64,000 nucleotides of DNA from Beijerinckiaceae bacterium. Lineage in GTDB: Bacteria; Pseudomonadota; Alphaproteobacteria; Rhizobiales; Beijerinckiaceae. Where the stretch lies: positions 1-64,000 of the forward strand of contig JALOTF010000006.1 in assembly GCA_025458025.1 (NCBI GenBank), read 5' to 3'. The translations under genes were made by a program, and so were the position numbers. A model generated the notes under the pieces. It was not told the DNA's origin. It did not search any database and was given only the letters and a program-made list of their open reading frames with translations. Positions 42,774 through 44,610 of this stretch are shown here, in pieces (within the stretch, counting starts at the first letter, position 1; every line of letters starts with the position of its first letter).

Positions 42774-43547
42774 TCAGCCGCTCGCCTCGCGATATCGGAT
42801 CGCGCGCCAGCTTCGGAAGGCAGCGCGCAGTGCGGGCGCGTCATCCAAGGCGGCGGAAACCGCGCTGATCGCCTTGAGGCTCAGCAGGGTCGCGGCGACG
42901 ATCTCGCCCATCTGCACCCGCCCGCTGATGGCGAGCGCGCCGCCCAGTGTCAGCAGCAGGATCTGCATCGCATCCCGCAAGCTGCTGGTCGCCAGTCGCC
43001 TTGTCCGCTCCTGCGCACGAAAGGTCGCGTCGGGCCGGGGTGAAGGCGGCTCGACGCTAGCACCGAAGCGCAGGAGTGCCGCGAGCGCCAAACCCGTCGC
43101 CAAAGCGAAAAGCGGATGCAGCACCAGCACCGTGAGCAGAAAAACCGGCACCCAGACGAGATCCGCCGCGAGCAGAAAGCTGCGCGTGCGCAAGGCCCGC
43201 ACAAGCGGAAGCCCGGCTATCCGGGCGGCTTCGCCCAGTGTTTCCAGTCGAGCCATCAGTTCCCGGCTGGCCTCATCCGCCATATGCCCGGCGCTGCCGC
43301 GCATCAGCGCTTGTAGGGCCACCAGCGCCAGAGCCGCGCCGCCCACCACCAGCAGCATCGCATGGGAGCCCGCCGGGATAAGCTGCCCGTAGAGCAGGAT
43401 GACGAACAAGGCTCCTGCCGCGCCCAGCAAACCGGAGCAAATCACCAATGCAACAGCACGAAGCAGCCTTGTTTCGAAGGGGGCGAGCTGCGACGGCGGC
43501 GCCGCTCGCCGGGCGGGAAATTCGGCAAGAGCCATCGGGTCGCTCAC
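42774..43547 (-). CDS. Type-I-secretion (PrtD-like) ABC transporter transmembrane domain without a nucleotide-binding domain
   Basis: FVILLYGQLIPAGSHAMLL and AADLVWVPVFLLTVLVLHPLFALATGLAL match the PrtD-like TMD pattern (QVYDRVLPSRS / DLPWVPLFL..LFLLHP); the ORF ends before any Walker motif; GTG start overlaps the upstream TGA. Confidence 0.7.
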   Translation of the reverse strand: MSDPMALAEFPARRAAPPSQLAPFETRLLRAVALVICSGLLGAAGALFVILLYGQLIPAGSHAMLLVVGGAALALVALQALMRGSAGHMADEASRELMARLETLGEAARIAGLPLVRALRTRSFLLAADLVWVPVFLLTVLVLHPLFALATGLALAALLRFGASVEPPSPRPDATFRAQERTRRLATSSLRDAMQILLLTLGGALAISGRVQMGEIVAATLLSLKAISAVSAALDDAPALRAAFRSWRAIRYREASG

Positions 43548-44152
43548 GCAGCAAGGGGTTCGGGTTTGTCCACGGCCTTGGTGTGCTCGCGCAAGAAGGC
43601 GTTGAACTCATCCGTGCTCCAGCGCATGCGGCGTAGGAGGCGTTGGACCGGTGGCCAGCAATGAACAACCCTTGATTGCATGGCGCCGAAATTCTCGATA
43701 TAACTCGCGAAGAAAGAGAGAAGTCTTTCCGCATTCTGCCGAACGCGTTCCGGGCTGAAGTCGGCACCGGCCAGCGCGGGGCCCTTTTCGGCCTTCTCGG
43801 CAATCATGCGTTCCGCGCGGGCCTCCGCTTCCGCCCAGGTGATGGAGGCATCCGGCTGATCGCGGGAATCGTGGTGCATGAAGCGCCCACTCGGCAAGGA
43901 TTGGCACAGTTTCTCGTATTCGCGGGTCTGCATGATCCAGAGATGCCAGAGATCGTCCAGTTCTTCGCCAAAGAGGATGTTTCCCGGGAATTCATGCGCG
44001 AGAATGAGAAATTTCAGCAGTTCGGTGAGACGAATCCGCAACTCGCCTGGCTCGATCTCCGGGCATTTGACCCGGAAGTACACAAAAAGCGATGGCGAGA
44101 AGAATAATTCAAATAATTGATCGTCTGATCGCGTTTTTTGATCGTTTATCAT
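43544..44152 (-). CDS. GRDP-like (glycine-rich-domain-containing-protein-like) protein of unknown function
   Basis: ELDDLWHLWIMQTREYEKLCQSLPSGRFMHHDS resembles the (D)xxWHxxIxxTRxYxxxC...G.F.HH motif of GRDP-like proteins; good SD (GGGGGAC, 7 nt). Confidence 0.6.
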   Translation of the reverse strand: MINDQKTRSDDQLFELFFSPSLFVYFRVKCPEIEPGELRIRLTELLKFLILAHEFPGNILFGEELDDLWHLWIMQTREYEKLCQSLPSGRFMHHDSRDQPDASITWAEAEARAERMIAEKAEKGPALAGADFSPERVRQNAERLLSFFASYIENFGAMQSRVVHCWPPVQRLLRRMRWSTDEFNAFLREHTKAVDKPEPLAA

Positions 44153-44176
44153 CGATAGTCCCCCAATATAAATCTA

Positions 44177-44202
44177 ACAATTATATCTTAAGATATAATT
44201 GT
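44177..44202. promoter_or_regulatory. Perfect 26-bp palindrome in the AT-rich divergent intergenic region
   Basis: acaattatatcttaagatataattgt equals its own reverse complement. Confidence 0.85.
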
Positions 44203-44209
44203 GATCGCA

Positions 44210-44229
44210 AACATGTCCCCCGACATGTT
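44210..44229. promoter_or_regulatory. Second dyad: AACATGTC-CCCC-GACATGTT
   Basis: 8-bp perfect arms, 4-nt spacer. Confidence 0.7.
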
Positions 44230-44346
44230 CTTAAAGGCTGTCATGCAGAGGAATTAATTGTCAAGCATGGATTTTTTAACTTTGTCGTATTGACACGTTA
44301 ACCAATTTGAACATGCTTTTCTCGTTGCCATACGACAACGGGGGAC

Positions 44347-44610
44347 ATGACGATGACGATCGCTTTGAGCCGGGTTTCGATCCGGGTGGAGCATGAGGCC
44401 GTGCAAGCGTTGATGGGGCGGATGACCGAAGCCATCGCTGCCATGGAAAAAGCAGATTGCGGTTGCGGCGGGGGGAGTGGCGGAGCCTGCTCCGGTGGTG
44501 CGAGCTGCGGCTGTTCCGGCTGCGGCTGTGGCACTGGCGCAACTTGTGGCTGTGGCTGCAGTGGTTCCGGAAATGGCGGTGGTGGCGGGATGTCCGGCAC
44601 TGAACCCTGA
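44347..44610 (+). CDS. Cys/Gly-rich small protein, candidate modified-peptide precursor (start 44347 or 44353)
   Basis: Leader-like MTIALSRVSIRVEHEAVQALMGRMTEAIAAMEKAD followed by CGCGGGSGGACSGGASCGCSGCGCGTGATCGCGCSGSGNGGGGGMSGTEP (10 Cys, 23 Gly in 50 aa); preceded by gggggac SD-like sequence and TTGACA. Confidence 0.7.
   Translation: MTMTIALSRVSIRVEHEAVQALMGRMTEAIAAMEKADCGCGGGSGGACSGGASCGCSGCGCGTGATCGCGCSGSGNGGGGGMSGTEP

Follow-up and report, generated by a model that had tools for sequence, protein, structure and literature searches.

A conserved three-gene cassette in which a GRDP-like protein and a Cys/Gly-rich peptide are encoded separately

The GRDP-like family (PF07173, DUF1399; plant AtGRDP1/2) comprises plant and bacterial members that were named for their Gly-rich tracts. 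In the literature found, no biochemical activity has been assigned to any GRDP protein of plants, bacteria or viruses, and our searches for bacterial GRDP/DUF1399 function and for Cys/Gly RiPPs returned nothing relevant. Precursor-enzyme arrangements that are either fused or split have been described for the borosins, a group of RiPPs (PMC8429565). In this study, we analysed a 64,000-nucleotide stretch of Beijerinckiaceae DNA (hereafter the window) containing a GRDP-like gene, a gene for a Cys/Gly-rich peptide and a gene for an ABC-type transmembrane domain (TMD). The cassette is real and conserved, and is undescribed in the literature searched. As the best explanation, to which we assign a probability of about 0.55, the locus would represent the split (trans) form of a widespread pairing of GRDP with a Cys tail, organised here as a clade-specific three-gene unit.

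In the window, the peptide gene (44353-44610, + strand, 85 aa) is divergent from the pair formed by the GRDP-like gene (43544-44152, - strand, 202 aa, without a Cys tail) and the TMD-only membrane gene (42774-43547, - strand, 257 aa, GTG start), the latter encoding a degenerate type-1-secretion ABC transmembrane domain without an NBD. Translation from the ATG at 44347 would give a peptide of 87 aa; because all five relatives begin at the position of the second ATG (with MTI, MTF or MSI there), the start was placed at 44353. A first-pass annotation of this DNA had described three ORFs, 10 Cys and 23 Gly in the peptide core, and an AT-rich intergenic region, all of which were confirmed. It had also pointed to a GTGA overlap at 43544-43547; this 4-base overlap of the GRDP-like and membrane ORFs is present in the window but is not kept in the relatives, where the two genes are always adjacent.

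The distribution of the cassette was determined in a genus set of 17 genomes (appearing in the public set as Methylobacterium-labelled and Hyphomicrobiales MAGs), which was searched with each of the three proteins separately; for the membrane protein, strong matches were counted. All three genes were found intact and together in one set of six genomes (G000, G003, G004, G005, G007 and G010), identified by matches to the peptide N-terminus and to the GRDP-like and membrane proteins, and none was found singly. The gene order was identical in all six carriers: UgpC-like ABC-ATPase, TMD, GRDP, divergent peptide, MscS-type channel, motB, motA. The earlier proposal that the three genes form one unit is upheld by this co-occurrence in identical order; failure to co-occur and a frameshifted peptide gene had been named as outcomes that would speak against it, and the genes were found to co-occur, with the peptide gene intact in 6 genomes. 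All three genes are under purifying selection, dN being lower than dS in every pair with estimable dS, and reading frames and linkage were retained among carriers at 40-95% protein identity. The neighbouring MscS protein showed 83-85% and 70% identity in carriers and at most 62% in the other genus genomes, suggesting that the carriers are one clade. Because the carriers seem to be one clade, the probability of such co-occurrence (1 in 12376 under independence) is confounded by descent. The six cassettes thus amount essentially to one evolutionary event plus long conservation, and the weight of the conservation case lies in the retained linkage and reading frames. Many of the genomes used were MAGs, and gene calls outside the window were ORF-based. 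That the cassette came from a mobile element or phage was considered and rejected, as no relative was present in viral contigs and the flanks consist of syntenic chromosomal genes.

The divergent intergenic region (44153-44352) has a GC content of 38% in the window and 36-48% in the relatives, and is AT-rich in all six genomes. Upstream of the peptide gene lies a promoter-like TTGACACGTTAACCA (44290-44304, + strand); its motif TTGACNNGTTAACCA occurs as a single copy in the window's genome and at the same place in five of the six cassettes, and the promoter-like element TTGACnnGTTAACCA likewise precedes the peptide gene in five of six. A CtrA site at this promoter was suggested by TTAACCA and was rejected, given that the second half-site does not fit the consensus TTAA-N7-TTAA (PMC11264516). 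The region also contains an operator-like 26-bp perfect palindrome, ACAATTATATCTTAAGATATAATTGT (44177-44202), to which a palindrome of 25 bp corresponds in position in G004 and in none of the others, as well as a second operator-like perfect inverted repeat (44210-44229); both repeats are not conserved in most relatives. No Rfam element was found in the locus.

The N-terminal segment of the peptide (MTIALSRVSIRVEHEAVQALMGRMTEAIAAMEKAD; 44353-44457, + strand) is leader-like and spans the 35 residues that precede the first Cys. Its length is constant, with no indels, in each of the six orthologues, whereas the core is rich in indels. In the 50-residue core (44458-44607, + strand; alignment and counts), 10 Cys would be expected with P ~7e-11 at 1% Cys. 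The motif GCGCGxGxTCGCGC is conserved in five of the six peptide cores, 8-10 Cys per peptide and a repeated C-G-C spacing are kept across the six genomes, and the core contains no aromatic residues. No signal peptide was seen on the peptide, no GG site was found in the window peptide, and family profile searches gave no match to metallothionein families. A strong amphipathic leader helix was rejected, as the hydrophobic moment of the 35-residue segment did not exceed that of shuffles. The first-pass annotation had likened the peptide to microcin B17 McbA. This likeness stands as a compositional one, but homology of sequence was rejected (phmmer E = 1.8, bias 30.8). Moreover, YcaO was found in none of the 17 genus genomes by a search whose control was positive in 5/14. 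As far as known machinery goes, its absence rules out a product of the microcin B17 type and is consistent with the previous statement that this would not be a known RiPP class.

For the window GRDP-like protein, neither Pfam nor NCBIfam returned a match, in Pfam even at E<=1, and the protein lies below the PF07173 gathering threshold; some tailed relatives also fall just under it, as exemplified by L060 (20.3 versus a cut-off of 22.7). When the cassette GRDP was compared with tailed GRDPs by hhalign, a match of 98.5% (E = 4e-15, 84 columns) was obtained. Alignment of 21 divergent members revealed the core motif D66..W69-H70..T76..Y79..C83..G89..H93-H94 (43871-43957, - strand), in which D, WH, T, Y and HH never vary and at least 90% of members have C83 and G89; such a core would suit a metal or catalytic site. 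The AlphaFold model was all-helical and of moderate confidence (pLDDT 72.8, 7 sequences). It had no fold match in the PDB, and its top match in BFVD carries a GRDP-like annotation, with prob 0.99 but an E of 0.12. The earlier GRDP-like label is therefore sustained by the hhalign result and the best viral fold match, and the assignment of the window protein holds by conserved core homology. The tail of the window protein contains 1 Cys and is without a Gly tract, the Gly/Cys tract being encoded by a gene of its own.

Weak GRDP relatives were detected by profile search in 15/399 Proteobacteria, 40/349 Rhizobacter-order genomes and 25/385 Alphaproteobacteria, and relatives also occur on Rhizobium and Streptomyces plasmids and in one Klebsiella phage. 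The tails were surveyed in 81 GRDP ORFs, 7 of them cassette-type and 74 from elsewhere (Proteobacteria, a Streptomyces plasmid and a Klebsiella phage). Cys was present in the tail or at the terminus in 65 of these 74 non-cassette GRDPs (39 Gly/Cys, 20 other multi-Cys and 6 single terminal Cys) and in none of the remaining 9. Across the 81 ORFs, Cys made up 5.8% of the final 40 residues beyond the domain versus 1.0% before it, and at least two Cys in the last 40 residues were found in 53/81 GRDP ORFs versus 58/315 control ORFs, spurious ones among these controls included (Fisher p ~1e-15). The tails comprise Gly/Cys/Asp tracts, CSSSSC runs and tandem repeats such as AAAAFCSIEPSQ; among them are GGGCGGGCGGD, CSSSSCSSSSCSS, AALCVPSKE repeats, MCGGMLKEDEALNLKP repeats, DCLREA and CVHDCTPA, alongside short ends, for example AAFCS or AICSR. 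Most tails are Gly/Asp/Ser/Cys low complexity, and tails other than Gly-rich ones also keep Cys. Many tailed GRDPs carry a hydrophobic TM-like N-terminal segment. No consistent neighbours were found around tailed GRDPs, so that their surroundings provide no pointer to function. A separate Cys-rich peptide gene adjoins all seven tail-less cassette-type GRDPs. Nine other GRDPs lack both a tail and a visible Cys partner, and two of these are neighbours of a tailed GRDP. The occurrence of the Cys tract in fused and in separate form argues for a functional link in the Rosetta-stone manner, here from low-complexity tracts whose homology is unprovable; fusion of the Cys-rich tract to GRDP in most other bacteria suggests that the two parts work together.

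Several of the surveyed loci had features of their own. In an alphaproteobacterial locus (L201:1700-4731, - strand), the gene for a GRDP with AALCVPSKE repeats precedes a small ORF (RTTSGCGICSVLMAV), which resembles a C39-type cysteine peptidase and has no Pfam match, and then a gene for a PPDK_N/PEP-utilizer protein; this is a possible further peptide-processing cluster. Gene_95 of Klebsiella phage 05F01 (L154:2941-3801, + strand) encodes a GRDP-domain protein with the C-terminal end CSSCSTSSCSSSSCSSSSCSSSSCSS. The Streptomyces plasmid GRDP (L153:4812-5384, + strand) has a Cys-containing tail, and nearby are genes for a DUF6415 natural-product protein, a flavin reductase and an acyl-CoA dehydrogenase, and VlmB-like genes. 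On a Rhizobium gallicum plasmid, a GRDP with the tail SCKGCNGCAAGCVS (L152:4758-5348, + strand) is located within a nif/fix region beside nifW and nifS. Finally, the gene for a GRDP with a CGSCD end (L099:2732-4216, - strand) lies immediately before that for an unrelated 356-aa protein with the end CSSCSSCSSCSSCS.

The seventh tail-less cassette-type GRDP was found in a Rhizobacter MAG (L051); it is full-length, with 30-34% identity. The genes there are ordered Cys-rich peptide, GRDP, HlyD and C39-peptidase ABC transporter, the best NCBIfam match of the transporter being NHLM_micro_ABC1. The peptide, MQTKTTRHDIPEASTATLPTTFVTAEETAELTKMLELEFEQAQQVAGG-LASTIRCCACHCCSCH, consists of a double-glycine leader and the Cys-rich core LASTIRCCACHCCSCH, divided at a putative cleavage site. 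This is the only case of a GRDP with a peptide in trans outside the six-cassette clade. The same MAG encodes a second GRDP (L106:5731-6579, + strand) with about eleven AAAAFCSIEPSQ repeats.

Residues 177-251 of the membrane ORF match TIGR01842 PrtD (E = 2e-7), and no ATPase domain is present. Its AlphaFold model (pLDDT 80.9) matched PrtD 5l22 in Foldseek (prob 1.00, TMq 0.72, E 3.7e-5), as well as the transmembrane domains of PCAT1 and HlyB (probability 1.00). When aligned with the full PrtD of the genus, the protein lacks the NBD, has a 6-11-residue gap in coupling segment 1 and has lost ~35 residues spanning segment 2. These three lines of evidence agree with its earlier description as a PrtD-like TMD without ATPase. 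A working ABC exporter by itself was rejected: export by the membrane protein is unsupported, given that it lacks the ATPase and the greater part of both coupling segments. Full PrtD-type exporters are encoded elsewhere in every one of the 17 genus genomes; a borrowed partner therefore stays conceivable, and the membrane protein may rely on an ATPase or exporter of this kind. For the role in peptide maturation or export proposed in the first-pass annotation, the Rhizobacter operon provides indirect support, but export by the window membrane protein is not supported, and that interpretation as a whole is partly supported.

Under the split pairing of GRDP and Cys tract that we favour, the GRDP-like protein would bind the Cys/Gly-rich peptide, probably via its constant-length N-terminal segment, and would act on or with the peptide Cys tract, whether by covalent modification, processing, folding, metal loading or simple binding, as other GRDPs would with their own fused tails. 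The membrane protein, presumably co-transcribed, would hold GRDP and peptide at the inner membrane or serve as a passive or borrowed conduit. A possible but less probable explanation is a metal-binding module, in which the peptide would be a small cytosolic metallothionein-like Cu/Zn thiolate protein, the GRDP-like protein a metal chaperone or loading partner, and the membrane protein an anchor. The conserved Cys number and C-G-C spacing, the latter a lead that we take to resemble short fungal copper metallothioneins, would fit such a protein, as would the lack of a visible signal peptide, and a metal site could be built from the invariant D and three H, together with the near-invariant C, of the GRDP core. 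However, the peptide resembles no metallothionein family, a constant N-terminal segment is atypical of metallothioneins, the Gly content is far beyond metal-binding need, and the cassette includes no metal-efflux or metal-regulator gene.

The Rhizobacter locus, with its double-glycine leader peptide, HlyD and C39-peptidase transporter, brings to mind a secreted bacteriocin or signalling RiPP, whose cysteines would be modified covalently by GRDP and which would lose its leader and be exported, the membrane protein being an exporter or immunity protein with an ATPase from elsewhere. The multi-copy Cys repeats fused to other GRDPs resemble multi-core precursors, and the full exporters of the genus could supply what is missing, but the cassette offers no GG site, C39, HlyD or NBD gene, most of both coupling segments are lost, YcaO is absent from 17/17 genus genomes, and we know of no modification chemistry for GRDP; we consider this explanation unlikely. 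Equally doubtful is a purely structural role, whereby the Gly/Cys tract would be a low-complexity tail (for oligomerisation or membrane/envelope attachment) of a housekeeping GRDP complex, split off by gene fission without any peptide chemistry. The low complexity of most tails, the TM-like start of many tailed GRDPs and their lack of conserved neighbours are consistent with this role. It accounts poorly for the Cys kept in non-Gly tails, tandem repeats included, for the conserved N-terminal segment and promoter-like element of the detached peptide, and for the processing-type leader of the Rhizobacter peptide.

With the Cys/Gly tract encoded by its own gene, the GRDP domain can be assayed in trans with the partner that it is presumed to have. 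Should it act on that tract, a large family of so far unassigned function would be explained, and the cassette would point to a new peptide maturation or metal-handling system. More speculatively, and with low expectation, GRDP domains could be a widespread, unrecognised family acting on and possibly modifying cysteine peptides, with the substrate usually fused as tail or repeats and sometimes split, as a new RiPP-like class; it is just as tentative that the window cassette and Rhizobacter, with their leader-plus-core peptides, would be its split cases.

Compared with known systems, the window peptide shares with metallothioneins its C-x-C clusters, small size and aromatic-free core, but differs in its leader-like N-terminus, far higher Gly and lack of a family match, the likeness being one of composition alone. 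With microcin B17 (McbA, TOMM class) it shares a Gly/Ser/Cys core composition and a short leader-like N-terminus, whereas no YcaO cyclodehydratase accompanies it (0/17 genomes) and the sequence match is not significant. The membrane protein has the TM fold of PrtD/HlyB/PCAT-type exporters (TIGR01842) and their segments YxxxIPSGS, D-WVPxF...HP and GGALxIxG...GEIVAA, but lacks the NBD, the greater part of coupling segment 1 and all of the coupling-helix-2 segment. As in NHLP-type/double-glycine C39-exported RiPP loci, represented by Rhizobacter L051, a small Cys-rich peptide gene adjoins the GRDP gene; unlike these, all six cassettes are without a GG leader and C39 transporter, and that of the window also has no HlyD or ATPase. 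Borosins provide an analogy only, in that one domain occurs with a fused C-terminal peptide tract or a separate peptide, the GRDP locus being without a methyltransferase. With the GRDP-like family, the window protein has in common the D..WH......T..Y...C.....G...HH core; it differs from that family in having no Pfam match or tail, its Gly/Cys tract being a separate gene, and in being linked to an ABC TMD.
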